Assembly (NCBI GenBank): GCA_963971425.1
Contig: OZ020517.1
Span: forward strand, 4,156,501 to 4,220,500
DNA: 64,000 bases
Direction of reading: 5' to 3'
DNA from: Bryoerythrophyllum caledonicum
Lineage: Eukaryota > Streptophyta > Bryopsida > Pottiales > Pottiaceae
Shown: piece by piece, positions 20,281 to 52,760 of the stretch
How the letters are laid out: each line of letters opens with the position of its first letter
Numbering within the stretch: the stretch's first letter is position 1
Made by a program: the position numbers and the translations under genes
The notes under the pieces: model-generated
Told to the model about the DNA's origin: nothing
The model's database searches: none
What the model saw: only the letters and a program-made list of their open reading frames with translations

Positions 20281-20283
20281 AAG

Positions 20284-22286: not shown

Positions 22287-23666
22287 GGTTAGTATCTTAG
22301 TTTATAGGTCACTGTTCATTCGCGGACTAGGCCCCAGTTTGACTTTGGAGTTTGACTTGTTTTGCCTTGGGAGTTGTGTTTAGATGCCTTTTGACTTGGC
22401 GTTGAGTTGGTGGGATGACGGCTGCGCCGTCAAGGGTAGTTAATGCCACCATGTTTAGTTAGATGGCATCTCTTGATTTGGACGTTAGTATGTGTTTGCT
22501 GCAGTATAAGTGGGGAGCCCCTTGGCACCTCTCTTCACTGCTTGTTGTGTGTATTTACTTTCAGTTTGAATTCTAAACCTACACTCTCAGAAAACCTTCC
22601 ACGGTTGGAGAGCTCGGATTGCATACGTGATTGCGAGTGCCATTTCAAGTAGTCCACTCCTCAAGTCTATACTAACCACCGAAGTTGTCGTTTCCTTGTT
22701 CCATCAACTAGAGTTAGTCGTGTGGATGGGAATAACAGGTGAGATGGCTAGGGGATTAGTCGGACGTGACTCTAACTCTAACTCGTGCAATTGTTTCCTT
22801 GTTCCATCAAGTAGAGTTAGTCCGGGTGGATGGGAATAACATGTGAAATTGTACGGGTTCAAGGAAGGACAAGGGGGGAGTGACCGGTGAGGGAGGAGTC
22901 TTGGTGCGCCTTGTGTGACCTATCAGTGGCGGATGTAGCCGATTGTGAGGGCGTAGTCAGATTCCTGCTACACTAACCTTTGGTCGGATGGTTGAGTCGT
23001 AAGGAGCATTAACTTACCTTAAAACATTAAGTCTAATTTCAGTCTTCTCCTTTGTGCGGATGTCTATTGGTAAGGACTGACCCAAAAACCATGGGTTAAG
23101 GATTGAATAGGACCTGGTTAGATCCCTTGTGCGGATGTCTATGCGGATACAACTAGGACCTACTCTAACAGCTCGGGTTACCTTGAGGGAAGGACGGAAA
23201 GCTAACTAACCCCCCTTTGTGCGGATGTCTATTGGAGGTGAGGGAGGAAGGACGTCGTCCTCTGAAGGAAAGGAGTAGAGTCTATGGTCCCTTGTGCGGA
23301 TGTCTATGTGGACCCTCTAGATAAAGCTCTTTTAGCCATTTCGAGGTAAAGGAAGGACTACTAATCCAGATGGTAGGTAGGTAAAACTACGTGGCCGCCA
23401 CGAGAATTACACAAGTCCTAGAGGCCAAGGGCCTAACTCCCCCCTTAACGGGGGAAATATAGTGAAACCACAACCATCCCAAGTTAGAAGTAGCAGTCGA
23501 TAGAATAGGAGGAAGGAAGGAAAGATGTTACTTGTGTCAAACCCCCAAAATCTCTACGAGTCCACGGAGAAATCGTCCGTGGTGATATACCCCCCCTTCG
23601 GATGCTTATGATCTCCGGATGTCCATAGTGTACATGGGTGTATAGTTGTTCCTCCACAAGGACTAA
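22287..23666 (+). other. noncoding 3' region of element A
   Basis: No gene seen. The motif TGTGCGGATGTCTAT recurs four times between about 23050 and 23310. The whole stretch is nearly identical, without indels, to 51008-52387 of element C. Confidence 0.7.
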
Positions 23667-23849
23667 GTGGGTGTCCGCCGTGGGTGTCCGCTGTGGGTGT
23701 CCGCCGTGGGTTTTTGCGGTGGGTGTCCGATGTGGATATCCTCCGTGGGTGTTCGCCGTGGGTTTCCGCCGTGGGTGTCCGCCGTAGGTATCCGCCGTGG
23801 GTATCCGCCGTGGGTTTCCGCCGTGGGTTTCCGTTGTGGGTTTCTGCCC
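23667..23849 (+). repeat. 13-bp minisatellite slot 2 of element A
   Basis: About 14 units of GTGGGTGTCCGCC and close variants. It is followed by the conserved tail shared with C. Confidence 0.9.
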
Positions 23850-24467
23850 AAGGAGCAAAGTCCTTTCCCTACGGTAAAGGGGAAGGGTGGTTGTAGATAA
23901 GACTAAACCGTATGGTCTAACCTTTCTTTCTTTCTTAGTATGTATCTATTGTGGTAGGTTTAGCATTGTATAGTTTTAGGACTGTTGTTAGTCATTGTAG
24001 TTCTCGGTGATTCTCTGTGGGAACGAGTACCGTAGGATATCTTTGTATTAAGATGTGAATACTTGCCAACACGTGCTACGACAACAGTTTTGGAGAATAG
24101 TCATTCTAATGCAATGGAATTAGTAGACGACGTGATATATATATAGAGTTTAGCAACGAGGCATAGCCTAAACACTGCACGATTCAAATTGTTTAATAGA
24201 AGTGGGTGGTGAAAGTTGTGTGGAAGTGTCAGATAATTTAACCACAGATTAGAGTCCTTATAAAGAAGGCCGCCGTCTTTACGTAAATTTGACTAAAACT
24301 AGTGTATAGAGCGTTGAGCTTTTTAAAGCGGGCAGGTCGTATTGGGCGCACGATATGTACACCTGAAGCGAGGAGAAAGGCTGTAAATTGCGTGCCAAGA
24401 GTTTGGAAGTCTACACTATTTAGTTGATATTAGGAACGAGTTGTAGAGGAAAGTCCATTTAGATCAT

Positions 24468-24719
24468 ATGCCAAAGAGAAAGAAACGGGCGGCCCAATTC
24501 TCTACCTCGAAACAACTGAAGGCGTCACAGGAGTCGCGAATGCGGAGGTACGCGGGCTTAGAGGGTACAGCTAGAATATTAGGTCCGGAGTTTGCAAAGC
24601 TGGACGTAGTGACAACGTCGAGGCGGAGAGGGAAAGCAGCGGCTGATAAGGAGCAAGAGGTTCAAGTTTTGATGGACGATGCGCGTGTTTTAGAAACGCA
24701 GGTATACGCTTGTTTTGTA
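24468..24719 (+). CDS. small basic protein of outer MULE, interrupted by inner MULE
   Basis: The frame starts at ATG 24468 (M-P-K-R-K-K-R-A-A-Q-F) and gives about 84 residues before meeting the inner MULE. It is Lys/Arg-rich, with R-R-R-G-K-A-A-A-D-K-E-Q-E, and is probably helical. The duplicated 9-mer TGTTTTGTA ends the left part. Counting it once, the same frame continues at 35688 for about 52 codons with one in-frame TGA early on. It lies downstream of the divergent transposase start and upstream of the ParB/methyltransferase gene on the same strand. I do not recognise the family; DNA binding is plausible from charge only. Confidence 0.5.
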
Positions 24720-24785
24720 GGGACGAAGCTATTTTGCGTGCCGTGAGTGGTGAGCGGAGAGCGGTGAGCGGTGAGCGGTGAGCCT
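24720..24785 (+). repeat. left terminal inverted repeat of inner MULE
   Basis: Contains GCTATTTTGCGTGCC then repeated GGTGAGC/GAGCGG units. Its inverted partner is at 35632-35678. A looser match may extend further inward. Confidence 0.85.
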
Positions 24786-26538
24786 AGAGTAAAAAAGTCG
24801 GGCATTTTTTGGGAAAAGTTATTGATAAAGTTGGAATTAATGTAAATGAGAAAGTGAAAATTAAAGCAAAAGGTGACGGTAGAAGGCCTATAGCCGTGGA
24901 TTCCTAGTCTTATATGATTTATTTGTTTGTATACCAAAGTACCTAGGGAGGTACTTTTTAAGAAGGGGGTGTTGAATGAAATTGGTGAGGGTTGTAGGAA
25001 CCCTATGACTGTGGATTTCCAAAACTGTCTTCAATAAGTGATGTTGCATAAATATCCCTATTATTCAGCATCATGTTTATATGAAACCATTTTGTGTGTT
25101 GATTTTTATATTTTATCAACATTCATAGAAAATGCAATGCCTAGTTACGTTGCATGATCGTACATAATAGAAATAAATAGTATATTTTAAATTTCAGAAT
25201 ACCCGTAGAAAACATGGAATGTTTTAGGATACAAATTATAATGATTAAAGATACCTCATATATATAGTGGAAAATGTGGACTTGGGAGAATAGAGTGCTT
25301 GTGTAGGAAGAGATGATAGGAAGGATTTTTGTATATTAAATTACTGGTCAAATTAGGAGCGGGGTAGACAGTTTTGCAGTGGCATATTATATGTAAAGTA
25401 AACTTCATTCTAGAGCATTGTTGAATTTTTACATTGCTCAACTTGTTGGTACATGATAAACTTAGTAAATTTAAATGGCCTACAATGAAAGTCTTCATGC
25501 ATCGACAAATTTTTTAATCTGAGTAACAAATTTAAATTTTGCAATCTGAAAGACGACAGGGTTCAATCAAAATTCATCGCATTAATCTTATTGAATATGA
25601 ATGAAACCAAACAAAGCAAAAGGCATGCAACTCATAGTACTTTAGTGATTCTCATCGGTTGTTCATTGTATTCCTTGCTATTGCATGAGTTTTAGAACTA
25701 TGAATCAGGTTAATATACTCCATGGGTGCTTACGCTTGAGCAAGCGTAAATATGAACTTCAAATTTCACAATGACACTCTTCATGGAAGATACAACAAGT
25801 TGGGTAATTGAAGGCAAAAATTTCACAATGTAAATATGTTGTTAAATTTGAACTTGTCTTTAACGTTCCAAGAGTTCAAGATATGGAGATCACCAAATGA
25901 AGGAAGATTAAAGCAAATAATGTAATAGGATGAAGATATATTGGGCTATAGCACTAAAGAAATAGCCAAGAAGTGTAGCATGAAATTTGGTTGTGAGGAT
26001 GACAAAAAGAAATATACAATTTGCAAGCCACATTATGTTAGCAGCCAATGAAACAATCGTGCACTGAATTACAGAAAGGCGGGAATTCAATAATTGACCA
26101 AATAGAAGTTTGAATTGAGACTACTAGCATGGAAACAAAATATGGAAGTTCTAAAGGATAAGGATCGTTTACAAACAAATCATAACATGAATGCCAAAGA
26201 AAAAGGAGAGTCCACAGAAAATAAAAAGTGTGTTCACGCAGATGCAGACGAAGTAGAGGCCAAGGAGGAGGATAGGACATGTCTTTCAACGTCTGCTTCT
26301 ACATCTAGAAAATGGAGCACATGGGAATCATATCGCCGATTGTGGGTATGGATTTTAGGAGACGAGGTAGTCGCCATTAAGTCTGCGATATGGGCGGCCC
26401 AAGGTGGCAGCAGAAAATCTTTGGTTGGGGAAGCCGCCCTGGCAATCAGACTGCAGAGTCCATAGAGAAATTAGGTTATCAAATCAAGGAATTCTTCACA
26501 GAGAATGGCAGAGAATTTCAAATTTAACAACTTTGAAC
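24786..26538. other. AT-rich arm of inner MULE, no confident gene
   Basis: Mostly AT-rich and noncoding. A plus-strand open frame at 26115-26465 has an acidic/basic composition and W-S-T-W-E-S-Y-R-R-L but no known domain, and it runs opposite to the neighbouring gene. I leave it uncalled. Confidence 0.4.
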
Positions 26539-29500
26539 TTACGTACTCAGTCTATTTCTTTTCACAATCTTGCGGATAGGAATGTCTTCGTCTAAGAGAG
26601 TTGCCATTGGAGGCGCCTCACTTGGGATGGTCGAATCGACTGATGGCGATGATAGGGCCTTCAACTTCTCGTTGAAGACAACGGTGTCGCTTTCCAAAGC
26701 AACGATATGACGGCCGGACATCTGGCATGCGCGCACAGAATTTTCTGCAAAGGAATAACAAAATTAGTTATGACTACAATTATGTACATTGCTTAAGAAA
26801 TGAAGAAGACTCACCGATAGAGGCAAACGCATCTAGAACAACCGCTTGAGGTTGTAATAAAGCCTCGATCAACATCTGGAGGAAGGTAGTGTCCTTCTCA
26901 CGTGGCCCCCTCCATGGAATGGGTCCTCGCATGGACTGAGATTCAGCAGAGGTGAAATTGAAAAGAACATCAGATTCTTCCACGCCCATTCCCATCTCAT
27001 AGAGGGCGTCGTTTTTATTGAACTTGAAGTTGGCAACATCCACATTCTGTCGAACAAGGAACAAAACACGAAACCTACGCGACTGCGATTGCAATGCACG
27101 TCGAATCCAGTAGAGACAGTTAGAATGAGATATACAATAAAATCAACAAATAAAACATCTGAAATGTAAGAAGGAGGATCGGTTAAGCGCACCTTCAGCG
27201 AAGCATCAATGTGCGAGGTGAATGGGAGGTCGTTTATTGCCCACCAGTCTTTGAGGATTTTGAAACCGTATCCGCCCGCATAAGACAGCACATCGGACCG
27301 GATAGAGGGGACCTCGGGCAAGAAGATCAGCATCCCGCCCTTGTCGTGGAGGAAGAAATCTGAAAACTCAAATAAGCTCTCCACGACCGGAATCGAATAC
27401 TTGTTCCAGGTTGGAATGTCATTTGTATGCTTTGAGATGGATGGAACCGGCATCCCGTCAGGGATGTTTGCCAAGATCAAGTCGAATCCACTGTGAGGGC
27501 AGTGAGCTGAACGACCTGTACTGCAAACTTCCTTCCTCGCCTGGACAAGCACAAGTCAGTAATAGTGTTTTGAAACAATGGCATTGGATGTTTTGTTACA
27601 ATGAAGAGGATAATTTATAGTTCTAGTTGTAAAACAATCCTATTCTTTTGGGACAACAACAATCAATAAGTACAGGAAAAGAAATAGACATATCTTGAAA
27701 TTTAGATGTAAAAAACTAGCTTAAGTACCTGGAGGACAAACTTATTCATGGCAAGAAGCGTGGAATGCTGGTCAGGGAAAGAATCCATGATCATAGAGAT
27801 TGATGTGTTGTCTACAAAGACACTCGTTGGTGGAAGTGGCGAGGTTCTCCCAGCCTTCACCGTCATGATAAGCATGTTAGAGTTCTGTGAAAGGGGACTT
27901 GAAGCGTTCGAAGCTTCGGGTGCTGATCACTTTGATCTCCTCTGAGACTGCAAGGGCGCCACTAAGGACTCTGAATCCAACATCTCAATGTCATCAATAC
28001 GAGCGGTGGAGGCCAAAGTGATCAGCTGAGCATGTTGTGAGGCTAGTTCCGCCTTCGCGGCGGCAAGTGCTTTGGCCACTTCCGCTACTGTAGCCTCCAA
28101 TTCAGCCTTCGCGGCAGCCTCCGACTCTGCTTTTGCTTTAGCAGCAACTTCAGCATCAGCGGTAGCCTTTCTCTTGGAGACACGGGTCTTCTTCGCACCA
28201 AGTTCTGTAGAAACAGTAGGCAGTATTGTTTCCGTACCCAATAGATCTGGCTGGACACTGTTCCGCAGTTCGATATCAAATGAAGGATGCCTCTTAACGG
28301 GACAATCCAAATACCAACCACAACGCTCCCAATGCTCACGCCCCCATGTCTTCATGATATCGTCAGTGAACATGAATATATCACTAGTCTTCTCCAAGTA
28401 ATTGGAGAAGGATGGTGGAGTACGAGAAATTGCCTTCCTCGGGAATAGAATGTACATGAAGTACCTGTAGAGAGTCCGGTTGATGGCTTGCTTAAGTCCC
28501 ACTTGCTTCTCGAGTGGATTATTCTTATGGACTCCCTTCCCCTTAAACTCGTTATGGAAGGCAATATCCCAGAGCTGCACGCGCATCTGTTCAACGTATT
28601 CGGGTATTGTTTGGATCGGCATACCATGCTCAGGAAAGTAGTCAATATTAACCTCCATGTCAGATAATATCCCTTGGAACAATGATTCAGTCTCCCCTGA
28701 AAGCTGCAATTACCATTCAAACAATAGTAAGAAATAGAAGCACAATGAAATAACACTATCAAAGAATGGTAATTCAGATTGTACGTGAGCCCACCATGTG
28801 GCCTTGTGAAGCCATTCTGGAAAGTCATGGTCTGGGAACTTAGACTTTGGAAAGCGAACTTGTTCACGAAGGGAAGATGGCTTGTTCCACCTCTCCAACC
28901 ATTTCACTTTCATGCTTGGGACCATAGCGGAGGTGGCGAGGTAGTAGAGCTTCTCCTGAGACATCTCAGGATCATCTTCGCGGTCCTCATAGTGGATTCC
29001 AATTTGTTGAAGAAACTCGGAAGTGTGCTTGGGGTCAGCAATTGGCAATTGCTTCTTGAGCTCAGATGTTAGTTGAACCTTCACTTTCTCAATTGCAGCT
29101 GAAACAAAGTCATGAAACTTGGCGGAAGTCCAAAGAGAGTCATCTGGAAACTTCTCCTTGAATTTTCGATTAGCATGAGCAGCTGCCTCCCCCAACTCTT
29201 GCTACAAAACCAAGCAAGGTGTCCCGTCAACAACACTCTGATCAACACACCAACAATTGAAGTAGGGGAAAGCATCCACTATAACATTGATGAAAAATGC
29301 AAGTATACTGAGTAGATGTTATAGAAGAGCAAGAATACCTGATAAATAATTGCGATTAGAGACTTGAATGTCAACGTATACCATGTTTTGTCCTTGGACT
29401 TCTGCTTTGCCTCGGCAGCTGAAATTTCATCCTTGCTCACCAAGGACTCAAAATACTGTAGTGGCTGCCCGGCAATGCCCTGAATGCGATATAATTTGTG

Positions 29501-31433
29501 GACAAGGTTCATGGTGACGTGAGATTTCTGGTTCCTCCTGCAAGCTCAAATTCATAAGTTAGAATTTAATTTCACCAATTAACTGAAAGCAAATGGTAAT
29601 CATACCAGTTAACCTGGTGAAGAGCTGTTAGTAGAGGAGCCACTTGACCCTCCACATTAAGGATAATAGATTCCACCGCATAATGCCACTTAGCATCGTT
29701 GGAATGGTCTCGATTGATTATTGGCATCCATGCTTGTAATCTGTGGTTCCCATCCCAAATATGGAACATTCTTCCAGAAAACTGCTTTAAATCCTCATCC
29801 ATCTCCAATTCAGTCTCAAATTGCTCATTTGCTTTAGTCCACAATGGACTCCAAGAATCTGAAATGGCTTGGGTGACAATTACCGTCTTGCCCTCGTTGT
29901 CCTCCATAGCCACGTAGAACACACCATGGCCATCCATATATCCCGTGCTCACAAAATGCGCACCCAAACCCATCACATCATTCTTCAAAGAAGGTCGAAC
30001 TACCGGTAATGAAATCATTCTGCATAGAGGAATATTTAACTTTGATTTGTGCCTTGGTTTAAATTGGAGCCTTTCCAACACAAGGTTAGTATTCACAGAT
30101 TCTTTGATGACCACTTCATCCATCTCCTTTCCAAGGACATAAGCTTCGAATTCTCATCTGGGTCCTCCAAATCAAGGTCTGCCGTCTCTATCAACGGCTG
30201 GACATCTGCAATATCATGGAAAACCACATGAGAATTTGAAATCAAAATGGAACCAAACTAAAGTAAGTCCAATCACAATACCAATACCTTCGTTCTCCTG
30301 ATCATGTTGGATGGACTCCGGCATCTCATTGAAAGAAGAATCTAAAAACATCACAACGGAAAGATGGGTGGTGAACATCTAAATGATGCGCTAATAGTTC
30401 ACTGAAACTTGAAAAATAAAAAATCAACACCGACTTCTGAGCCAGGTCGGCGGCCCGCAGGGTAGTGCCGACAGCGGCACCCCCTCGGGGAAGGCTTTGT
30501 CAATGTTGACAGCCCCGCCCGCGAAGACGTGCAGCTGTCGCCTCCTCTCCTATGGGGTGCCGACCGTGCTTTAAAGTCGCGATCCGCAAGGGGGTGCCGA
30601 CAGCGGCACCCCCTCACGGGTGGCGCCGCAGATATTGATAGAGAAAATAACGAATCAACTCAAGGATTACAAAGAAGAGGAGGAAATACATGAGATGCTT
30701 ACCCTCCATGTCGAGTCTTCGAGGATCGCAACTTCCCTCAGTCTCGAGGCTGTGGGTGTTGCTCTTTCGATCAAATTGAAGCCCGTTGTCCTCGGCTGCG
30801 ACGACTTGCGTCCAAGACTCACGTTAGATTATGGATTTTGTGAACCCATCAAGCAAGCATGTGAGTGCAATCGGTTGCGCATTATCGTGAAACCCTACAC
30901 TCAATGAAATCGTTCCTCCTCTCTTCTTCACTACGAATGCCTCGAAACCCTAAGCAAATAGAAATGGCTCTTCCTGTCTACCTCATTTCGGCAGCAATAA
31001 AACCATATTTTCTCAAAATGGCAGGTAAGGGCGGGTAAGGGCGGGAACTCACGACGGGATTGGACGGGAACAAGACTTGGTCAGATGTAACAAAAGACTA
31101 TTGACTTAACGGCTTTAGGATCTTTTCAGCCCTTGACATCTTCGACCTCGCTTAAAATGCTAAAACCACAAAGACAAACATAATTTGGGCTAGAATTAAC
31201 TCACATTGATCGCAATCCATGGCCGACCTCGGGGGGGTGCAAATTCCTTTGCCGTTGAATTGCACATCGAAGTTGGGTTGTATATCCTCCCTAACGTGCT
31301 CTGCAATTCTCTGAAGCTTTGGACTACTCCGACAACTCATAACTGGACTCAAGTCAGATGCATCCTCAAAATTTAAAACCCTTGCAGTCTCGCCAGAATC
31401 GACCTCCCTCGGCATCGACTTCTTCTCTCTCAT
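26539..31433 (-). CDS. ParB-like plus DNA methyltransferase-like protein, copy X (inner MULE)
   Basis: This is a multi-exon minus-strand gene. Approximate exons: 31433-31208, 30860-30690, 30340-30289, 30210-29608, 29541-29330, 29203-28779, 28704-27730, 27544-27190, 27100-26815 and 26745-26539; several GT-AG borders are clear. The fourth exon carries I-P-L-C-R-M and D-G-N-H-R, as in ParB/Srx-type domains. A Lys/Ala-rich coiled segment follows. The last exons resemble a permuted (beta-type) DNA methyltransferase: D-L-I-L-A-N-I-P-D-G in the place of the catalytic (D/N)PP(Y/W) box, then W-R-G-P-R-E-K-D, then V-V-L-D-A-F-A-S-I and G-R-H-I-V-A-L-E-S-D as the SAM-binding motif. The altered catalytic box makes activity doubtful. 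Damage seen: TGA at 27927 and a probable frame change near 30150. Copy Y is a relative. Confidence 0.7.
30416..30640. repeat. GGTGCCGACAGCGGCACC palindrome cluster, intron of copy X
   Basis: A GC-rich island in an AT-rich intron. The 18-bp near-palindrome GGTGCCGACAGCGGCACC occurs twice in reading orientation with diverged copies between. A second cluster sits in the intron of transposase 2. Confidence 0.75.
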
Positions 31434-32142
31434 TTGCCTACTCCGTTTTAGCGTCTTAGCATCACTAAAAGTACAGAGCTTTTCTCTTTTGCCTTCTCAT
31501 AATTTGTGAATTATGATTCTACTTGCATTCAACTCCTCTTTCACCACCACCTTTTAGGGGCAATTCTTTCAAGGTTTCAACGTAGTTGATTCAGCAGGTC
31601 TGCTCATTTTTATTCAAGTTTTTCTAAATTATTGTGAATTTCCCACCAATTCTGTGTTCAGATCGTGGAAATGACTCGAATACTTTGTTATTGTCAATTT
31701 CCTATACTTTTATGTGGCGGCCATTTCAATTTAAACATATCCATCTCTAAGAAAAACCATGCAAAGGTGGCTTTGGGATTAGATTAGCTAATTCAGAGTC
31801 ATATTAGTGCTGGCCAAATTCTTTGCCAGATCAAGATTGCTTTCATTAGAATACTTTAGACAGGATCTTCGAAGCGGAGCTTATCATTATTAATAGACCA
31901 AAATTATTGCAATTTGACGGCCCTTGCCCTGTCTCCCTAGCATCAGCCGTCGTGGGTACACGTATCCCCACTATCCTTTAATAACCTTATGGTTGCTATG
32001 GTTACTCTTAGGGGCTTAAAGTATATATACTCCTGTGTATCTCCCTTGAATCAACTCTTTTAATGTCGTCTTTGTTAGAATTCAGTTCACTTTGTCTTTG
32101 ATAGAATTCAATTCACTTTGTCTTTGTTAGAATTCAATTCAA
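31434..32142. promoter_or_regulatory. shared divergent intergenic region of inner MULE
   Basis: It lies between the head-to-head starts of copy X and transposase 2. A TATA-like TATATATA lies at 32022-32029 on the transposase side. About three 27-bp tandem units built on CTTTGTTAGAATTCAATTCA follow at 32068-32148. I infer a bidirectional promoter region from position only. Confidence 0.45.
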
Positions 32143-35076
32143 TTGTCCTCTAAATTATGGCTGACCTTGAGAAAACTTAGGGCCTTGATTGGGGAACAAG
32201 TTGAACGGACTCCCAGTGCGACAAACTCCTCCATCATCTTGGAAGCAAGTAAGGATTACCTTGGAGAACTGCTCCTCTGCCCTGACGGTGTTCCGCACAA
32301 GACCTTGAGATTAGATGAACTTGTCCCTGTCTTGAACAAGGTGAAGCAGATGACCTCCCCTAGTCTCCGCAATGAAGTCACAACATTCCGTTACTTGCGT
32401 CGATTTGGAGTCATGGACAGTATCACAAAATTGAGAGGCTCTAGCAATTGGGCTTTTGTCCAAGAGAACCATTTTCTGGGACAAGGTGCAGACGCAGACA
32501 AGGTCTTTATCTTTAAGATGGCAGAGATTGGACCAGGGAGTGGTGTTGATTTAGTACGCCGAATGCAGCCTCGCGGTGATTTGCAAGACTCTTGGATGAT
32601 GTTCGATCATGTGAAGCGCGTCAAAGGATGGACTACAATGGCTTCCCATGTGTATGATTCCACGTATTGCCGTGTTATGACCATTGCTATTTGTGACATG
32701 CAATCCGAGGATGTCGCTGCGCAACGAGTATTCTGGAACAATTTGAATGCAGTGGCGGGTAGGCATGATATGCCAAATGTGAATTTCAAAGGCTTCATGG
32801 CGGACAGCGCACAGGCAAATTGGAATGCTATACGTATTACTTACGGAAGTGGAGACGCGAATATCCGAATGGACAACCGAGAAAGGACCTGCCTCTTTCA
32901 TTGGACGCAATCATTGGAAAAACATACAAAGGCAGACATCAGGGCAGACTTGCAAGACCAACACAAACGACTTTGCAAACAATATAAGAATTCCACATCC
33001 ATGGAGGAGGCACAGACTAAATACCTTGCCATTCGATCATGGTGGTTATCTTCTGGAGCAACGACGGATGATGGCCTCGTCCGACTCGACTTATGGCTTG
33101 CCTTTTGGCATTTCCGCTATCGACAGCGGGGAGGCTTCATGGATCATGTAAGCTACCCATACTTCACTTTTATTTTCTCTGACGTGTCCGTCTACCAATT
33201 TTTTTTTTCATTTGTTGAAAATTGTCGAAGTCATTTTTTTCTTCCTGCTAGATGGAGGTGCCGCCATCGGCACCCCCCTAAGTCTCGGAAATTAATAAAT
33301 CACATTTTACTCGTCAAATGTCACAATAGCGGCACCCTCCCTGGATGATGTACCTCTGAAATCTTTGCTCTACTCCAGAGTGGGTGCCGCTGTCGGCACC
33401 CCTTGGAGTCGTCGACTGTTGTATTCAGAGTTCCACACGAAAAGAGGTGGTGTTGTCGGCCCCTCCTTCTGAGTCGAGCAATGAATACTTCCGCCAACCA
33501 CCCCTGAATGGGAGCCGATAGCGCCATCCCTCTTTGCTAAGGATATTCACAACTCTATTTCGATTAGCTTTTTTTTATAGTGCCAAATTGACATATTGAC
33601 GTAGAATTGTTTATGTCTTCCAGGCTTTATCCGAGTCGGAATTTGCTGAGATGCCTTCATGTAATCTGGCGGAAACCGTTCACAACAAGTGGTTGCAGCA
33701 GTCAGGCAAGAGAGACAACGACTTATATGTGGCAACCGTAGATGACATGGTTCGTGCCTTCATGCAAGTTGTGGCCTATTATGGATTTCTGAAGGGTGAG
33801 AAGGCTGGAACTGGCCCAGGAAAAGAAGAACTTCGACTTCGTGCCGCCCAACGAACTGCGCAACAGTCTGGTAATTCAAAAAGTACTTCACGAAGCGTTT
33901 TCCAACATGCCTGGGGCCGACGAATTTTGCATCCGTGACCCTCATCTTGAAGGTGAAGAAGTCTTTCTCTCAATGAAAAGAAAGGCTGATCTACCGCCGG
34001 GTTCTGAATTTGACTCTCACCGACCCGACAAGATCAGTATCTCACGTCCTCGTGTGAAGACTGGACGGATAAATCCAGAAATCAGTGTCCTTCCAATCGA
34101 GGTTGACGTCCAATATCCTCGTCAAGAACATGATGCAGCTCGAAACCCTGATTCCCCGACTCCGCCATCCTCCTTACGAGTACAACACACCAAGAATGTT
34201 ATGGAATCAGATTGCGACGAGAGACAATGGCACATTGCTAGACTTCCGAAAACCTCTGCAGAAGCGTGTTTTGCTCAACAGGCCATCACAAAGAAGAAAT
34301 GTGTTGCCAAGATCGTACAAGGCGGGAGAAGTACCGCTGCCCCGACTTACACAGGTATGATGGACAGCTACAAGAAGAATAGGCATGAGAAGATGCAGTT
34401 CTTCTTTTGCAATGACTACATCGAGCGTTGTGTCAAAGGCAGTCGAAGGAAGTGGGTTTTGTCCAAACCTGAAATCCCAGATGTATGGCCCGTTAAGATG
34501 GGCACGAATCTCGTGAGTAAGGAAATATTAGCACTTGAAAATGCTGGGTTCCGCCTGGCCCAGCGCCTACAGTTGTCTCCAAGGAAGCTTTTTAGTGACA
34601 TTGCCGCGCCCGTGGACTTGGAGGAATATCCTCCGCCCGTAAACCCATTAGAGCATCCCACAAGGAGGTATGGAAAGAATATCCGCAGAAATCCGCAGGC
34701 ACCGACTACAAAACATCATAACAGTTGCGCCTCTGCACTCTCCGTGGTTGGCAAAGTTCGCAAGATCCTTATGGTGCCGCGACCAGCTCTAGGGTGCATT
34801 GTGAATTTGGAGTCCACAAGCATTTCCAAGGTCTCCACATATTTGGTGGTGATTGGTCAGTTTCCAAGTTGTAGTTGTCCATCTTTCAAGGAGATGTCTG
34901 ACAAGTCGCTTGGCAAACGCGCGCAATGGACATACTGTAAGCACCTCTACTTCATCCTGAATATTGTCTGTGGATTAGATCCTGAGGTTGATGTATTTAT
35001 GCATGCTCCTAGTTTCAGCTGGAATGAGACCAAACAAGTTATTCAACTTTTGATTCTCAAACAGTATACTGCATAG
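32143..35076 (+). CDS. MULE-type transposase with SWIM finger (inner element)
   Basis: Exon 1 is open from about 32143 to 33147, a GT-AG intron occupies 33148-33623, and exon 2 runs to the stop at 35076. Motifs follow transposase 1: M-M-F-D-H-V-K-R-V-K-G-W, F-K-G-F-M-A-D-S-A-Q-A-N, C-L-F-H-W-T-Q-S, then SWIM C-S-C-P and C-K-H-L-Y-F-I. The intron sits at the same site as in transposase 1 but is longer and filled with palindromes. A frame change at an A-run near 33878 splits exon 2. The N-terminal Cys cluster of transposase 1 is missing; no in-frame ATG occurs before about 32350, so an upstream exon or an N-terminal loss is likely. This copy may not supply its own transposase. Confidence 0.8.
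33243..33535. repeat. GGTGCCG...CGGCACC palindromes, intron of transposase 2
   Basis: Several copies of the palindrome family seen at 30416-30640, e.g. GGTGCCGCCATCGGCACC and GGTGCCGCTGTCGGCACC, within the 476-bp intron. Confidence 0.75.
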
Positions 35077-35631
35077 TTATCCGTATGGGCATTTCAACAC
35101 TGTGTTACATTTCTCTTATATTATTCAAAAACGGTGAGACTACAAAAGCCACCGGATGTGTTTCTAAATTGGCAATTGTTTAGATAGGGCGCAACCTCAT
35201 GTATATACAATCAAATGCACGCCACCTTCCATTTGAGATATGAACAAGTATTTAAATATCTGGAATCCAAAACTACATGGAGAAGTCCAAGAACTATAAG
35301 GACATTGTCTAGGATGTCAAATGCTTTGTATTCAAATAATAAACCTTCGTTACATTATTTCACAATGAAATACTTCAAGTCATTTGTAAGTTCACAATTT
35401 ACTTGTCTAAGGTCCTACACTTCCTGTATTGCCAAGTTGAATGAATCCATGCGTTCATGGAATCACACCCTCGTATACAATATGTTATTCCCAAAAAATT
35501 AAGCGGCCTCTTTCCACGGCTTTAGGTCACACATATTTTACTAATTTTAGATATTATATTCTACAATTATTCCTAAACTTTTTATTTTCCAAAAAAATCT
35601 CACAACAAATTTTAATTTTTCAGCTCTGGGC
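35077..35631. other. 3' arm of inner MULE, no gene seen
   Basis: AT-rich sequence between the transposase stop and the right terminal repeat. The short open frames show no motif. Confidence 0.5.
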
Positions 35632-35678
35632 TCACCGCTCACCGCTCACCGCTCTAGGCATGCAAAATAGCAATCCCC
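35632..35678 (-). repeat. right terminal inverted repeat of inner MULE
   Basis: Inverted partner of 24720-24785. It holds three GCTCACC units followed outward by GGCATGCAAAATAGC and a C-rich tip, then TSD TGTTTTGTA. Confidence 0.85.
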
Positions 35679-35687
35679 TGTTTTGTA

Positions 35688-35843
35688 GTGAGGGAGTGAT
35701 TGAAAATGCATTTTTTGAGAGGGTCATACGTGTTCCGTGAGTTCGTTTTTGAAAAGCTATCATTTGAGACGATGCATTTGATAGAGGGTGACTTAATTGA
35801 AATGCAAAGAGTCCTCTTGATGGGGGAGGGGATCAGACTTTGA
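35688..35843 (+). CDS. 3' part of the small basic gene split by inner MULE
   Basis: This is in frame with 24468-24719 if the 9-bp duplication is counted once. After one TGA at 35697 it stays open for about 47 codons (F-R-E-F-V-F-E-K-L-S-F-E-T-M-H-L) and stops at 35841-35843. The extended open frame after the TGA suggests a former CGA codon. No known domain. Confidence 0.45.
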
Positions 35844-36375
35844 CGGCTTTAGTAGAGGATAATTATGATGTATGATGGACTACAATGTTGATGCGATTGG
35901 AAATGAGTAATATGATGTTAAGGTGAGGACGGTGGTAAAGTATGATTAAAAACAAGTTGGGTAGTGGCCGAAAATGATGTTGATGTGGAAAATTATGTCG
36001 ATTGCTTGACTTGTAAGCGAAGACGAAATGATGAATTTTAGTCATCATGGAGACGTGTACTCTCTAGTGACGGCTGAAGTCGCGGCCGTTGCTGACGGCT
36101 CTCTCATGGTACGTCTAATTAGAAGCCTTAAGAAATGACGGTTGTGTGTGATGGGTTGTGAAATTAATTATTGGGTTGTTGATGGAAGGGTTGTGGTCAT
36201 AATGAGTTGAATTGGACGAGTTGGGTAGTGGCGGAGGTTGACGGTTCACTCCAACCATAGTTATAAGTAGAGCGACTTCTAATGTATATCTTCTTTCATT
36301 TGTGCAACCTTGGAGGTCTTAGGTTTTCCAGTCGATAGTATTGGTTAGCAAGTTCCAGCGTTCTAGTGCAGAGCG

Positions 36376-39300
36376 ATGTCGAGAAGTTCTGTGATAGAGG
36401 GGGCGCCGGAGCGTTCTATGCAGGTAATTGTAGACAAGGTTAGGAGAGACGGAATGATTAGGGTTTGGTGGGAACTGCGAGTGAAGGAACTGTGAGGTGT
36501 TTCGGAGAGAACTCTTGTGAAAGGGTTCAATATGTTGCTAACATTAGATTGAATGGAATTGCTGATGGATGAAGAAGAAGCTCCCGGCGATCCGGTAATG
36601 CGCACAGCAAGTGGCCGTGAGATGGTGCAAGTGGGTGGAGAGGATGCGCGTGAAGTCGGTGTGGAAGTCGCGCACGAAGGTGGAGGAGAGGGTTTGGCGA
36701 TGGCCATGCTCGACGCTGAAGAAGTCCGAGACAGAGGCGGAAGAGACGAGGCGGGACCTCGAGGCGGTAACAAAGTGGAGAAGGATGCTTTACAAACGTT
36801 GACCGAGAGTGGAGGTGAAGATGAGCAAGAGCCCAGCGAGGGATGTGATGATTCAGAAAAAGGCGACGAAGAGGAGAGCGACAAAGATGACGATCTCGAC
36901 AGGATAGACGAGGAGGCGGAGAGCGAGGAGAAAGCAGGAAGTGAAGCGGAGGCGGATAGCGATGCAGCCGCTGCCCTTGTTGACTTGGGTATATCCGACT
37001 CAAGCAAGGACATCGATGCCGGGAGAGGATCAAGGAAGAAGGGCAAACGCAAGAGCAAGAAGAGGGAGAAGAAGGAGGCTACGCCAGACCTTGATGACGA
37101 CCTCGGCCAGGATCCGGATGCCTCTATAGAGCAAGTAACGAAGCGAATTGGTATCGTGTACCACCCTGATGCATTTGCGGCGATCAACCTAATGCGGCGA
37201 CTTTCGATGGGTAAATTCTTACATATTCGAATTCCACTATGCCGCATGATTCCAATGCAGGAGCCTCGAAAAGTGCACAAAATTGAGAAGCAGAAGATGA
37301 TGGCGGGGTTTGCTCATGGATATGGAGATGGTGACACCTCCTTCTATCTTGCGGTGACTGGCAAGGAAGGAATTGAGCGGCCGGTTGATGATGCGATTTC
37401 GAAGTCCTGGTCCTCAGACTGGAAAACCTTGAACGAAGAATTCGAGTCCGAGTTGGCTGACGACGAAGACCTAAAGCATCTGAGTGGGAAGATGTTGTTC
37501 ATCTACGATGGCAACCACCGGTACGAGGCGTGGAAAGAGTACATCGACACGAAGAAAGCTGGTGACACAGAATTTGTTAAGAAGAACGGGAGGCTGTTCT
37601 GCATTATACTTGACATTACTCCAAATGGGTATCCACGAATTCTTTCAGCGATGCACGCCGTCAACAAGTGTCTTTCTAAAGCTGCAAGGTTTGCAAGCTT
37701 ATCAGGTTTTTCTGCTAATGACCGTTGTTTTGTTAGGGCAAACGAAACAAACCATGTCGTTACGAATGTCATGAACCAACTTGACCGGGTGCATTTTATG
37801 GCACTCGGCCACTAGAGTACTACAAGGACTTGATCCCGCCCCATCGCTATGAAATGTGCGTGAAGAAGCCAAGCACTACGTGGTACCCAATTCCCGCTTC
37901 TCAGATGGTGAAAGTGCTATTCCAAGTATTTCTCGTTCCTTACATTCTTACATCTTTCAAATTTGAATTAGAAGCTCATTCTTGCTTACGGCGTTCTTGC
38001 AGGACAAGTTACATGAAACCGCAGTAAAAGAGCGACTCGCGTATCTAGCAGAGAGTCCAGAGGACGAACAGACTGGACGAGGTATGCAAGAATATATGGA
38101 AGGCTAGATCCATCTGAAGCGTGATAAGCTGACGAAGAGCTTTGGCAAGCTTGCTGGAGTGGCAAACCTAGCTAACGGAGAAAGCTTTCTTGACGAAGTA
38201 ACCATACATACAACCTTTAATCATCATTTTTGAATGTAATTTTGAATCAAATTTGTTTTAAAATAATTCTAATTATTTACAACAAACTAGGACCCATAGT
38301 ACATTATTAGGCTTTCAATTAGACTACTAGGCTTTATATGGAACGAATTCCAAGTTTAGTGAACTGTAGTGACCACCCCGTGCAAACCTCCACTTCGATC
38401 CTATGAGGGTACCCGGCGTTGTCAAGGTACCACCCAGCATACCCTCTTGTTACGAGAGGATACTCCCGATGGTACCCGGACGACTCCGGGTACCCTCTCG
38501 GAACCGAGGGGGGACCAACCGGAGAAGTCCCCCTCCGGTTCCGAGAGGGTACCTGGCGTCGCCTGGGTACTACGAGAGGGTACCCTGGTGGTACCAGGGC
38601 GACCTCGGGTACCCTGGTGGTACCAGGGCGACCTCGGGTACCCTCTTAGGATCGGCATGATGACTTAGTTTAGTATCACCTAGTTCCGAGAGGGTACCTG
38701 GCATCACCCGGATACTACTGGGAGTACCCTCTCGTAATGAGAGGGTACTTTTTGTGGGATTCGGGTGATGCCGGGTACCCTTTCGGAGTTGGACGTGACA
38801 AATTTACGTCGTCCTTGCTCAAATTTTAGTGGATCTCTATCGTCTACCGGGTACCATCCAACATACCCTCTCATTACGAGAAAGTATGTTGAGTGGTACC
38901 AGGGCTACTCCCGGTACCCTCTCTGAATCGAGAGAGGTCCACCTGTTCGAGTCTCCTCGTGATCCTCAGAGGGTACCCGGTGTTGCCCGGGTACCCTTTT
39001 GGGATCGGTGGGGGACTCGACCGGGTGGACCCCCCTCGTATTTGAGAGTGTGCTTGGTATCGCATGGGTACAATCGATAGTACCCTCTCGTTACGAGAGG
39101 GTACTATCGGTGTTACTCGGTCGACGCCGGGTACCAGCACGGGATCGTGAGAGGACCACCCGGACGAGTCCCCTCCCGATTCCGAGAGGGTACCCAGCGT
39201 GGTCTGGGTACCACACAGCATACCCTCTCGTAACGAGAGGGTATGCTGTGTGGTACCCAGTCCACGCCGGGTACCACCAAAGTGCCTAGAGAACATCTTA

Positions 39301-42139
39301 ATCTTGTTGTCTGGGTGCGAGTATTAGCTGCTTGTGACGTCAGAAAATTTACTTCTCTTAATATGACTTGAATTTTTTTCCTTTGATTATGTCACACCAC
39401 CAAAGAAAAACACAAGGCGGTACTAATTTTGTGTTCATTTGAATAACGAAACATGTTCAAAAGAACTATGACCGGCATAACTTAGACCGAGTGGAGATGG
39501 GGCTTGAGAAGCTTCAGCTCGTGGCCACAACAGTTGTTCCCTCCAAGTATAAGGTCATGTGGCTGAGGATGTGGAACGAGTCGGACTTTCGGCAAAAACA
39601 GAATCACTTTCCTGAGTATCCTTGCTCTGAAGCCGACCTTAAGAAGTTCCTGGCACAAGCGGTCTTCTATGCGTGGGTACGTCTAGTTTTTGCTCCTGTT
39701 TATCTTCTTGTATTCTCATGTATTCATCACGCATTCTTGATCATCTATTACAGCTTCTGGAGGATCTCGGGCCAAAGATGGATGATCTCCTAAGCAATCT
39801 GGAGCTGAACCCCCACCTGAGAGAGCAGCCACTATCCTGGATGGAGTACTTGGCGATGTGGAAGCTCCGCTTGTGGGACCATGCATACAACAACCACTTT
39901 CTGGCAGAGTCTCCATTCACTCGACTATCGAAATGGGAGGACGTCAAGGATCGCGGAGATATCGCAACCCGGTTTGTCTACCGATATATCAAGCATGAGC
40001 TCCTTGAAAAAAATGCAATATCCTCTCTACCACTCTGGATGCACACGGCGTACTCAACGTCGTCCAGCTCTTGCATATACTCTCCGTATCAATTGTCGTT
40101 GCTTCCGTTGGATCATTGCAAGGACTGCCACTGGTATGTTGAATGTCACAAGAAGTACTGTCATGAGGAAGAGCTATTCATGAAGGAGGGGCACGGTCCT
40201 CTGAATGACATCAAGGAGGACGTCCCGGAGAAGGCTGACACAGCGAAGGAGAAGAAGAAGCGCTCGAAGCCAATGAGCCCAAACACAAGACGTCTGCAAG
40301 CCAACAAGAAGGCTAAGGAGCGACATGCTAAGATGAGGAAGGTGAAAGGCAAGTCTGCTACGGACGAGGACTTGGAAGAGGAGGATGATCTTCAGGTAAT
40401 AGAGGAATCAAGATTTCCCGAATCCTCCGTCCGGGAACATGGAGTCACTAGCGTTGCTATAGGCGTCTCGACACCAGCTCGCGTCACTCTGTCGGATGAT
40501 AGGCCTATGGAGGTTGAAGTATCATTACAGAAGGAGATCCCCGTACGCCCTAGGACGGAGCCAACACCAGCGGAGGATTCAGATGTTGCTCCCTTAATTT
40601 TTCGACGTGTGCAGCCTCTTCGATCTCTCAAGTCACCCGCTACTAATCCTACAGTGTCCGTTACGCACTCCCACTCCACATCCACAAGGGTGCCGCTCGA
40701 CGATCCGACCCCGAGTCTAAACATCACCCCCTCGAGTCACACGAACCCTGGTGGCACAGATCCAACGTCGACACAACTTATCATGAACGAGTCAATGTCA
40801 CGTGATGTTTGGAATGAGATCTCAGACTTTGTCACTGATTGCAATGACGGAAAGACTTGCCTACTGCGAGGGAATGTCGTTCAAAAGGGGCAAAGGGTGG
40901 ACCTCGTCCTTGCACAGGTACCGGACAATCTTCTCGTGCCCGATGTGTCGGTACTTCCAGATGAAGTCCCCGGTTGGAACATGCTTTCCACTAGCTTAAT
41001 GAAGATGCTCTTTGGTTTTGCCAACGTCTTCTTGCATGACGATGGCGGTCTATTTTTGAAGTTTTCTGATGACAAGGACAAGACAATGCAGATCTTTAAG
41101 GCGCACTTCCTGGGATTCGGATTCAAGATTATGAAGGAGTGGGTCGGTGTGAACAGACTGCCAAAAAGATCCGCTGCTGCGGCTTCTGGGACCACCAACT
41201 TGTTCAAGGTTGTGCTTCTTATGCGTGCTAACTCTCTTCAAGGTCCAATCAAGGCGTACCGCAAATCAAACTTCCGTTTATGAAAGCATCCGGTGCTTGA
41301 AGAGCTCTCACTGGATATTGCTGGAAGTGATGCCATCCTCAATTTTGTGATTAAGGAGACACTCACTCGGACTGCTGATCGGGTGTGGCGTGGAGCAAAA
41401 GAACGTGGTCTGCACTTCTACACGTCGTTGATTCTATCTGCATCAGACGAAGGGGATGTCGTAGTTGACATTACCGCCGCTACATGTGCGCCTAAGAATT
41501 CCTCTGTATTTTTTTTTCATTTCAATCTCGCGCTTGTTCACTATGTCTGCTCATTTTTCAGGAAACTCTATTCGAGTCTGCAAGGATCACGGTCGTCACA
41601 TCGTTGCGTTGGAGGCCGATGCGGAGGTATTGAGGCCGTTCTCAAGCCTCTCACTATCCAAGTCCCTGCGATGCGCGTCGAAGACCACATGGATGTATCT
41701 GATGACGAGTCTGACCAGTTGACTCTACCCTCCGACATACCAAGTGTCATTTCAGATGCTGCCGACATGGACTTCGAGCCCCTTCCAAAGCGTGCCAAAC
41801 AATCGAAGCCGTAAGTAGGTGGAACTCAATGGTACCTTCACCGAGAACGTTATTGATGTCATAATTTTCTTCTTTATCTCAGCATCGGTTTTCATAGACA
41901 CTTCTTTTTACTGCAGACGTCATTTCTCTGTAACTCAAAGTCCCGAACGTTTTCCTTTCTTGCCCGTATACGCGCGGGATATGACCAATGCATTAGCGGC
42001 TTCCAATTCCCCACCTGCTTTTTGTCATAGAAGGCAGCGTTTTGATCCAGAAGTTTATAAATTTCTAGACATTCAGGCTCAGGAAGACAATGACTTTGAC
42101 ACTCTCTATGGGTCAGATAAATGCTCTGCAAGTGAATCT
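36376..42139 (+). CDS. ParB-like plus DNA methyltransferase-like protein, copy Y (outer MULE)
   Basis: I start it at ATG 36376 (M-S-R-S-S-V-I-E-G; exon 1 ends at a GT donor after 36423). A long acidic exon, ending at 37667, leads into the ParB-like part with I-P-L-C-R-M, G-Y-G-D-G-D and F-I-Y-D-G-N-H-R-Y-E. After an intron at 37668-37736 come exons matching copy X, a palindrome-filled intron (about 38.2-39.4 kb), then 39.48-41.8 kb with a basic linker (K-K-K-R-S-K). The methyltransferase-like part has D-L-V-L-A-Q-V-P-D-N, H-D-D-G-G-L, V-V-V-D-I-T-A-A-T and, after an intron ending at 41560, G-R-H-I-V-A-L-E-A-D. Damage: frame changes near 37790 and 41635, TAG near 38105, TGA near 41281. A last exon at about 41928-42139 is uncertain. 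It is older and more damaged than copy X. Confidence 0.65.
38360..39290. repeat. GGGTACC/GAGAGGG palindrome block, intron of copy Y
   Basis: About 900 bp of interleaved palindromes with arms ending in CCCTCTCG and CGAGAGGG and with GGTACC cores. Clear hairpins lie at 38723-38749, 39081-39103 and 39221-39243. The last extends to arms of about 25 bp on each side (39206-39258). Confidence 0.85.
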
Positions 42140-43477
42140 TAGCGTCGTGGTTATTTAAAACATACTAGCGTTGCATCATTTAGAGATTTCTTAAATTTTT
42201 GGGAGATTGCAACAACAGTCTATAATTCTTGGACAAAGCATAGTCCATATTTGCTTAATGATGGCATCAAAACAATTTTGCGTCAAAGAGGTGTTTAAAA
42301 TCACACAAATAACACTCTAATGTTTTCCTATCTTCGTTTCATATAGAAATTTCATTGGAAATGGTGAACATAAAGATAATCATTATTTCTTTACGTAGGA
42401 TGAATGAATAAACAAAATTGTGCAAAAAATTGTAAAAATTTCTTTCTAATTTAGGTGGAAGAATATGCAATCACAACAGGCACCCAACCCAATAACACAC
42501 CAAACCTTACATTTAATTCAGTATCTTGTCGACGTGGATGCTTATCCGAGGTTTAGGGTGGATTCATGATTCCTTGTTTGTAGATCCACACTACATAAAC
42601 CTTTTCATGATAATTACGAAATCAACTACGTTGAATCCAAAAGACGATATAATAGTTCATCCCTAACCTGATATCCAAAAACTTAAGCTCGAAGACTTCT
42701 AAATGCGCAGCACTAAATGTGTATCAACCATTAACAACCATGTTGCACCTATGACATCACTACTAGAAGTTCGAGAATAAGTAATTGGCCGTTTGCGTCT
42801 ATGATTAGTTGTAGGTGGGCAATTTATAACTATACAAAGATGCAATACCAATGCTCTCCAACTCTAATTTTGGAAAAGTGCACACTTAGTACTATTGTTG
42901 TATGATATGAATTATTGTCAATATTCTAATTTGCCACTCATGTTTCAGATCCATCTGCCAACATCAACTGTCATCATGGGAGAACGCCAAGGTGGCTGAT
43001 GACATGGATTTGAGTTTACATGGAATTTGATTAGAGAGAGATAGCATTCTGTACGAAAGTGCTGCAAGAGAGGTTCTAGGTTTGTTAGATAATCGGGCGC
43101 GACTAGTCAATTGGCGGATGTGGCTCTGCTTTAAATTATTAAGGTGACGCTGTACCATCGATTTAAAGTTTTAGGCCGCCGTCAGTCTCCCCACACTCAA
43201 GTCATGGCTTTTAAGTAAGCCCGGCCATAACCATCTAATTCAGCATTAATTGTACCTTGATAGCTCGTGGCCAAAGTCCCTACTAATGACCGGCTTGATT
43301 ATCATTTGACGCCCCATGATTGTGTACAACCGTGATGGAATTTTTCGTGCACGCGGCATTTGCCACGACACACTTAGAGCACTTCTAATGATTCATGTAC
43401 AACGTTGATGGGATGTCTCAAGCTCGCGGCCATTGCCCTCACACACGTTAGTACAATCATGATGAAGTTTTTCAAGC
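42140..43477. other. AT-rich spacer of outer MULE, no gene seen
   Basis: I found no frame with recognisable motifs and no clear repeat. It continues across element B/D to about 58231. Confidence 0.5.
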
Positions 43478-43698
43478 ACGCCTGTCGTAGTACGCGTTGG
43501 CAAGTATTCACATCTTAACACAAAGATACCCTTAAGGTAATCGTTCCCACAGAGAGTCACCGAGAACTACAACGACTAACAACAAACCATGATCTGTACA
43601 ATGTCAACTATACAATATATACATTAAAAGAAAAGAGAGAAAGGTTTAGATCACAAGGGGGAGCGTTAATTACACCAACCGCCCCACCCAAGTTCTTT

Positions 43699-43990
43699 AC
43701 ATGGCCCGGATCGTACATGGCCCGGATTCCACATGGCCCGGATTACCCATGGCTCGGATTACCCATGGCCCGGATTGCACATGGCCCGGATTACACATGG
43801 CCCGGATCGTACATGGCCCGGATTCCACATGGCCCGGATTACCCATGGCCCGGATTACACATGGCCCGGATTACACATGGCCCGGATTGCACATGGCCCG
43901 GATTACACATGGCCCGGATCGTACATGGCCTGGATCGTACATGGCCCGGATCGTACATGGCCCGGATCACACATGGCCCATATCTTACAT
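43699..43990 (+). repeat. 16-bp minisatellite slot 2 of element B/D
   Basis: About 18 units of ACATGGCCCGGATTAC and variants such as ACATGGCCCGGATCGT. It occupies the place where A and C carry the 13-bp array. Open frames in three phases are repeat by-products. Confidence 0.9.
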
Positions 43991-45239
43991 GGACTTTACA
44001 AGTATATATATTATAGACATCCGGATACTTGCGTATCCAGAGAGTGTCTTACCACCATGAACGACGGTTCACGGACTCAAACAAGTTTTAGTAAACGTTA
44101 CTTCTTCCTCACAGTTTCTCCAATCACTCCTACGGACTAACTTGGGATGGTTGTGGTGTCACTGGGTTCCCCCCATAAGAGGGGATAAGGCTTGGGCCTT
44201 AAGGACTAACACTTACTCTTGTGGCACGTACGTGGTGTACCCACCCTTTGAGCTGTTAGACCTTCCTTCACCTCAGAATCAGCTAAAGGAATAGTACGTC
44301 GTGGGATCGCCTAGCTATTAGCCCCGGGTACCCGATTCCCACTCCTTTTCTTCAGGAAACAAAGTCCTCCTCCTATTACTCCGATGGTCACCTCGCAAAG
44401 GGGTTAGTTGGATCTCCTTTCTTCTCTCAAGATAATCCGAGCTGTTAGAGTCGGTCTGGACTTACTGCCCTTAGGTCAAACCAATCTACTCCGTCCTCAA
44501 CACGAAGGGTTGATGGTGTGTAGTGCTCCTATGGATCAACCTATTCGACCAAAGGTTGATGCATCTGGGATCTAGAGTACATCTTCACAATCGATGACAT
44601 ACTGCCGGCGACCGGTCACACAAGACATATCAAGACTCCTTCCACACCCGTCACTCCCCCCTCGTCCTCCTCTAACCACTTCTAATCTCACCTGTTATTC
44701 CCCTCCACCACGACTAATCTACTTGAGGGAACAAGGAAACAATCACAAGGGGTCAGAGTTAGAGTCACGCCCAACTAACCATCTAACCATCTCACATGTT
44801 ATTCCCATCCACCACGACTAATCTACTTGATGGAACAAGGAAACAATGACTCGACGGTTAGTATGGACTTGAGGAGTGGACTACTTGAGATGTTACTCAC
44901 AGTCATATAGAATCCGAGCTCTCCAACCGTCGAAGGTTTTCTGAGAGCGTAGGTTTAGAATTAAACTGAAAGCAAGTACACACATCAAGTAGTGAAGAGA
45001 GAGGCTACGAGACTCCTCTCTTATGCTGCGAAGAACTCACACAGGAGTCCAAACTCAAACGATACCTTCTAACTAAAAACGGTGACAATAACTACTCTTG
45101 GCGGCGGTGCAGCCACTACACACGACGTGCACTGTCATAGGTCACTTATTACCCGAAACCCAAGGCAAAACCAAATCAAAACCAAAGTCAACCGGGGGCC
45201 AAATCCCGGACTGAACAGTGACCTACAAACCAAGATCCT
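43991..45239 (-). other. noncoding region of element B/D
   Basis: Diverged counterpart of 22287-23666 of element A. It shares blocks such as ATGGGAATAACATG and GAGAGCTCGGATT-like sequence in reverse orientation. No gene seen. Confidence 0.6.
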
Positions 45240-45242
45240 GGC

Positions 45243-46933: not shown

Positions 46934-47199
46934 TCCATTATCGTACCCCAGATTTTTAAATATTTTAGTTAGGTAGTTTAGGGTGTTAAAGTTAAACTTG
47001 CAGCTTAAGTTAAGGCACCAATCTAGGATTAGCCTCTAAGTAGAATTAGGAAAAGATGAATAAGGGGCTATTTTAAAATCCTTATTAGGGATAAAGGAGA
47101 TCCCAGACCTAAGCCTAGACCCAATCTTAGAAACTCACTTAAGCCAGGGATAACCGGATCACCTCAACCGGAGGCAATCTGGTTCCCCCCCAAACTAGT

Positions 47200-49010: not shown

Positions 49011-49015
49011 GAGAA

Positions 49016-52387: not shown

Positions 52388-52760
52388 GTGGGTGTCCGCC
52401 GTGGGTGTCCGCCGTGGGTGTCCGCCGTGGGTATCCGCCGTAGGTGTCCGCCGTGGGTGTCCGCTGTGGGTGTCCGCCGTGGGTATCCGCCGTGGGTGTC
52501 CGCCATGGGTATCCGCCATAGGTATCCGCCATGGGTATCCGCCATAGGTATCCGCCGTGGATGTCCGCCATGGGTGTCCGCCGTGGGTATCTGCAGTAGG
52601 TATCCGCCGAGGATGTCCGCCGTGGGTGTCCGCCGTGGGTGTCCGCCGTGGGTGTCCGCCGTGGGTGTCCGCCGTAGATGTCCGCCGTAGATATCCACCG
52701 TGGGTGTCTGCCGTGGGTGTCCGCCGTGGGTTTCCGCCGTGGGTTTCCGCCGTGGCTATC
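52388..52760 (+). repeat. 13-bp minisatellite of element C, left part
   Basis: About 28 units of GTGGGTGTCCGCC and variants. Interrupted by the element at 52761-54366. Confidence 0.9.

Follow-up and report, generated by a model that had tools for sequence, protein, structure and literature searches.

Analyzing a 64,000-nucleotide stretch of Bryoerythrophyllum caledonicum DNA (contig OZ020517.1, positions 4,156,501 to 4,220,500 of the forward strand; hereafter the window), we found two diverged genes, A and B, that encode in the same order a ParB/Srx-like domain, a middle region and a permuted DNA methyltransferase-like domain with degenerate catalytic and S-adenosylmethionine (SAM) motifs. 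Gene A (26539-31433, minus strand) was built from nine exons and eight GT-AG introns, giving 3296 nt (~1098 codons). Its ParB/Srx-like domain, a motif-level match reading I-W-D-G-N-H-R-L-Q-A, lies at 29606-30153 on the minus strand, and its methyltransferase-like domain at 26539-27540 on the same strand (exons 27540-27193, 27082-26815 and 26744-26539). Gene B, on the plus strand at 36376 to ~41814 with a putative first exon at 36376, carries the corresponding domains at 37117-37667 (I-Y-D-G-N-H-R-Y-E-A) and at 40774-41640. An earlier sequence-only reading of this DNA had described the pair, and its core observation is confirmed while its interpretation is partly supported: the span of gene A stands, and for gene B we use a C-terminal frame ending at 41814, short of the 42139 given earlier (the extension to 42139 is an open frame and may belong to the gene).

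Comparing six-frame pieces of both intervals by blastp revealed colinear matches along the two genes, at 41.9% identity over 148 columns in the ParB-like block (expectation value, E, 3.9e-28), 37.5% in the block carrying DLxLAxxPD (E 1.5e-18), 28.8% in the block running from WRG to VVxD (E 2.9e-6) and 45.2% in the GRHIVALExD block (E 6.4e-8), with blocks of 33% and 23% in the middle region. Four intron positions are common to both, namely after HxVN (phase 2), after [YF]Q, after A[HW] and inside motif I. Together, these matches and introns bear out the earlier description of diverged multi-exon paralogues with a common domain order; its motif W-R-G-x-x-E-K holds for gene A and not for gene B, which reads WRGAKER. 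With gene A as tblastn query (carrying one extra glycine), genes A and B were the only matches in the window at an E of 0.01. Differences between the paralogues are commonest at the third codon position in all five blocks and rarest at the second in four of them, the first and second being tied in the fifth. Nonsynonymous divergence (dN, NG86) is 0.62-0.89 in three blocks, and synonymous divergence (dS) is saturated beyond computation in two of these and 3.8 in the third. Given this codon-position pattern and these values, both genes bear signs of long purifying selection in the past. Each copy is also damaged. Gene A is interrupted by a TGA stop at 27927-27929, and its frame appears to shift near 30155; gene B has one stop at 38105-38107 and another at 41281-41283, and its frame appears to shift near 37800 and again near 41640.

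To place the C-terminal domain, we compared an alignment of A and B by hhalign with a profile of 65 bacterial N6_N4 methyltransferases, which matched at 96.3% probability (E 1.6e-9) over 200 columns; either gene alone gave less (A 67%, B 89%). The best of 100 column shuffles scored 23.7 against 67.0 for the true alignment, so that none reached it, and a reversed profile gave 0.7% probability. A score above those of column shuffles proves little on its own, since the methyltransferase profile also beat all 100 shuffles when set against ParB (22.8%, E 9e-4); the claim of a methyltransferase fold therefore rests on the 96% match over 200 columns. The bacterial set comprised 65 of 73 loci, and since the pattern used to choose them demands [DNS]PP[YFW] and a D..xGxG loop, its motifs are uniform by construction, which is not evidence that departures from them are rare. 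Within the alignment the motifs paired in permuted order, DLILANIPD with DLIxTDPPY, GGMLI with the next strand, PWRGPREK..VVLDAFASI with HPTQKP..VVLDPFxGS, and GRHIVALESD with R.xIGxE.d. Family libraries pointed the same way at scores below their curated cut-offs, where a cut-off exists: Pfam N6_N4_Mtase (cut-off 26.7 bits) reached 19.9 bits in gene B (E 7.9e-4) and 16.9 bits in gene A (E 0.0066), and the gene A domain matched PRK13699 in NCBIfam (E 1.1e-4) and the methyltransferase family phrog_6952 in PHROG (E 2.5e-4). The top solved chain was CcrM (E 0.087). A tblastn search of phages with this block (one extra glycine in the query) returned 29 records, the best 20 of which had E values of 1 to 3 over 22% of the query, and most of those 20 are annotated as DNA methyltransferases. 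On the profile evidence, then, the C-terminal domain of both genes is a permuted N6_N4-type methyltransferase fold with motif IV first and motif I last, as had been proposed.

Active N6-adenine or N4-cytosine methyltransferases carry [DNS]-P-P-[YFW] as motif IV and D-x-F-x-G-x-G as the glycine-rich SAM loop. Neither consensus is present in gene A or in gene B. In place of D-P-P-Y the catalytic box reads [N/Q]-[I/V]-P-D, that is, NIPD in A (ANIPD) and QVPD in B (AQVPD), and motif I, which contains no glycine in either gene, is DAFASIENS in A and, in B, DITAAT followed by a stop codon across the splice junction and NS; the subsequent motif reads GRHIVALESD and GRHIVALEAD, respectively. The degenerate catalytic box suspected earlier thus proved true of both paralogues and extends to the SAM loop. 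In contrast, among 31 bacterial frames that fuse a ParB-type domain to a methyltransferase (taken with the methyltransferase model of the 65-sequence set from 65 frames matching a ParB-type profile), motif IV was DPPY in 25, SPPY in two and DVPF in one, and was not found in three; these fusions have no introns, unlike A and B. Since the A/B values of dN are 0.62-0.89 with dS saturated or at 3.8, we infer that the motif IV change common to the two genes predates their stops. With the D-P-P-Y box and the SAM-loop glycines gone in both, A and B most likely represent a pseudo-methyltransferase lineage.

The ParB/Srx superfamily is marked by a signature of the type D-G-x-H-R followed by x-x-A, and the corresponding I-x-D-G-N-H-R-x-x-A is invariant in A and B. 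For profile comparison we used 31 ParB domains and 65 domains of the fusion-type ParB profile, three wrongly cut sequences among 13 ParB candidates having been left out before profile building. The ParB-like block scored 15.52 against ParB, with a maximum of 15.43 in 100 shuffles, and further pairs gave 20.14 against 20.08 and 19.65 against 16.88 (40 shuffles each); against the methyltransferase profile, 11 of 100 shuffles reached the score of this block. A Pfam scan returned no ParB model for the block of either gene; in gene B, DUF1015 matched over the DGNHR motif (E 0.014). Searching 20 bacterial genomes with the ParB-like profile gave matches in three at an E of up to 1, the best of which (L110, E 0.175) we take, from its letters, for a DUF1015-type protein. 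A phage tblastn with the block returned five records (best E 0.2), and neither the scans of viral contigs (two of the four with the extra glycine in gene A) nor the motif scans found relatives. Structure prediction by AlphaFold gave mean confidence (pLDDT) values of 34.5 for the ParB-like block (alignment of two rows) and 33.8 for the methyltransferase block (three rows, with the last strand absent owing to an intron). Of the checks proposed earlier, profile-profile comparison thus confirmed the methyltransferase half, whereas for the ParB half the signature stood and neither profile tests nor structure prediction added confirmation. Given the DGNHR signature and the published ParB-methyltransferase architecture, the N-terminal domain of A and B is likely ParB/Srx.

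Mutator-like elements (MULEs) are marked by inverted ends, a target-site duplication of 9-11 bp, and a transposase with a MULE domain and a SWIM zinc finger. Gene A lies together with a transposase within a 10,958-bp element that has inverted ends with heptamer repeats and is bounded by an exact 10-bp target-site duplication, TGTTTTGTAG, at 24711-24720 and 35679-35688. On the plus strand of the window this 10-mer occurs at these two positions only, with one minus-strand copy at 34706; in this repeat-rich window a flanking repeat of such length was seen for 245 of 200,000 random position pairs. The left terminal inverted repeat (24721-24900, plus strand, aligned part 24728-24900) contains an array of the heptamer GTGAGCG at 24743-24784, and the right one (35513-35678, minus strand) an array at 35629-35649; the two ends are identical in 119 of 180 columns (66%) with 28 gaps (E 3e-12). 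Allowing one mismatch, seven of the eight doubled heptamers in the window fell in these ends, where shuffled sequence gave a mean of 0.01. The eighth, at 63942-63955 (minus strand) near the window edge, is perhaps the end of another element. The transposase (32131-35076, plus strand) stands head-to-head with gene A and shows a SWIM-like CxC..CxH pattern at 34870, which is kept in a second transposase at ~13000-18925 (minus strand) that is 57% and 41% identical to the first in two blocks. Pfam matches to SWIM were weak and under the cut-off (E 0.41 for the first transposase, and 0.78), and the Pfam scan of the transposases gave no match to the MULE domain. The inverted ends and the duplication are those of a Mutator-like element, and the placement of gene A as cargo of an ~11-kb MULE-type transposon is well supported; the wording "plant-type" follows the sequence-only reading and the type of transposase. 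Gene B, which the same reading had also counted as MULE cargo, is found past the right-hand copy of the duplication and hence outside the element of gene A, so that it is not cargo of that element.

Cargo of this kind had been called unexpected, and is already in print. The 2025 study describing the 21.5-kb Sola1 family of Ectocarpus reports, in the passages on this family, that the strand opposite the transposase carries a cargo gene encoding a 1104-aa protein with ParB-like and N4-cytosine/N6-adenine methyltransferase domains, and cites relatives of this protein in green- and red-algal transposons (PMC12477816). As described there, the Sola1-1_Ec32 protein resembles gene A in its two domains, in being the product of a single cargo gene on the strand opposite the transposase, and in length (1104 aa against ~1098 codons); it differs in that the element here is MULE-type and the catalytic and SAM motifs here are degenerate (PMC12477816). 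By this analogy A and B would belong to the ParB-methyltransferase transposon accessory proteins described from algae, as a variant of that known kind. No report of a ParB-methyltransferase gene in a Mutator-like element was present among the matches listed in the openly licensed literature, and the relevant parts of a survey of eukaryotic N6-methyladenine do not mention ParB (PMC12695648). In fungi, according to excerpts of a further study, DNA transposons carry TET/JBP genes, and thus share with A and B a DNA-modification enzyme fold as cargo, a dioxygenase there and a methyltransferase here (PMC12730594). The domain order of A and B also recurs in a bacterial fusion, L108 (403 aa; genome G008, that of L029, Devosia sp. 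YR412), in which an N-terminal ParB-type domain precedes a C-terminal permuted N6_N4 methyltransferase across ~100 aa (64 to 173), against several hundred in A and B. A different kind of accessory protein is VANC, which to our knowledge contains no methyltransferase fold. It belongs to the Arabidopsis VANDAL elements of the MuDR group and, in the sections of the report that concern its action, frees its own element of methylation and has targets that are often tandem repeats (PMC5735166). VANC and the product of gene A would thus have in common that they are accessory proteins of the MULE group with tandem-repeat sites in the element (PMC5735166).

Given that the fold is kept while the catalytic and SAM motifs are lost, that a likely DNA-binding signature precedes it and that heptamers occur in both ends of the element, we propose that the A/B product may be an element-specific DNA-binding accessory protein with an inactive methyltransferase fold that acts in anti-silencing or marking; we give this reading a probability of about 0.5. 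The ParB/Srx-like domain and the middle region would bind the element or load onto it, with the heptamer tandem repeats of both inverted ends as a plausible loading site, and the methyltransferase fold would serve as a module binding DNA, SAM or a partner that keeps the chromatin of the element active or marked, whether as a pseudo-enzyme or by pairing, as the inactive partner, with an active methyltransferase. The anti-silencing role is proposed by analogy with VANC, for which tandem-repeat targets are described (PMC5735166). A narrower version, which we consider unlikely, is that a plant-type MULE lineage uses a clamp-like ParB/Srx domain and the pseudo-methyltransferase on its end heptamers to keep the element unsilenced without methylating it; the protein would then be the counterpart, for DNA, of methyltransferase partners that are themselves inactive.

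Several observations weigh against the proposal of a binding protein. By profile, the ParB homology is not significant, hhalign giving probabilities of 0.8-4.3% over 13-16 columns at DGNHR, that is, over the signature only; the ParB-like block matched no ParB chain among solved structures and nothing in PHROG, and in gene A its best weak matches were TRM5-TYW2 in Pfam (E 0.073) and Taw2 in NCBIfam (E 0.051), which are tRNA-wybutosine-type methyltransferases. The whole 987-aa translation of gene A (with one wrong extra residue) gave no N6_N4_Mtase match in Pfam, and the gene B domain had no match in PHROG and reached an E of only 0.054 in NCBIfam (CcrM). With stops and apparent frameshifts in each, both copies may be defunct, and the motifs, above all motif I in B, may in part have decayed because the genes became pseudogenes. 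The heptamer arrays could be a site for the transposase only; near gene B a search of the window found no such array, and no boundary or duplication that would delimit an element of its own.

The damage to both copies would also suit a cargo gene for an active N6-adenine or N4-cytosine methyltransferase that marks its own element, the copies in the window having merely decayed at the catalytic box, and the authors who describe the Ectocarpus relative predict, in the passages on that protein, that it methylates N4-cytosine or N6-adenine (PMC12477816). A like change of motif IV (x-[IV]-P-D after a conserved DLxLA) in two far-diverged genes that bear signs of purifying selection argues against this, and we regard an active enzyme as rather unlikely. 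The same signs of selection, and the retention of architecture and introns in two diverged copies, speak against host genes captured in Pack-MULE style without a role for the element; plant Pack-MULEs do carry non-transposase genes, yet like cargo is described in unrelated algal transposons in that same part of the study (PMC12477816), and capture appears to us very improbable. Scarcely more credible is that an N-terminal ParB/Srx-type nuclease or NTPase cuts, copies or protects the DNA of the element during transposition while the C-terminal fold binds DNA only: gene A adjoins the transposase, and for a ParB-methylase of Bacillus cereus the ParB domain is reported, in the portion concerning that domain, to nick DNA (PMC5512222), but membership in ParB is itself motif-level here and nothing ties the protein to the transposition reaction. 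If gene A belongs to it, the recently recognised accessory class joining a ParB-like domain to a prokaryote-type methyltransferase extends to a Mutator-like element. In this lineage selection seems to have maintained the fold after loss of the catalytic and SAM motifs, so that methylating the element and binding it become testable alternatives for how such cargo proteins act.

Around gene B and the element of gene A lie further repeats. At 38396-39282, within a long non-coding stretch of gene B, there are GGTACC-rich repeats with five copies of ~99 nt and many inverted pairs. An inverted repeat flanks gene B together with the inner element, its left arm at 20553-24104 (plus strand) and its right arm at 43462-46938 (minus strand) being 68.6% identical. 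We considered whether these arms bound an outer element with gene B inside and did not adopt this, since neither a boundary nor a duplication was found and the repeat has a third copy at 49012-56379. The underlying ~3.5-kb repeat is thus present in three copies (20279-24104, 43462-46938 and 49012-56379), two of them in direct orientation (93.7% identity across the main part) and the third inverted at 68.6%, and associated with these repeats is a 13-bp satellite (GTGGGTGTCCGCC) of ~136 copies at 54370-56143. At the other side of the window are two features that may belong to one LINE: a minus-strand reading frame at 10993-11646 opens with GDIETNPGP, which we take to be a 2A-like peptide, and downstream of it, at 5857-6744 (minus strand), we found a reverse transcriptase domain (RVT_1, E 1.7e-17).

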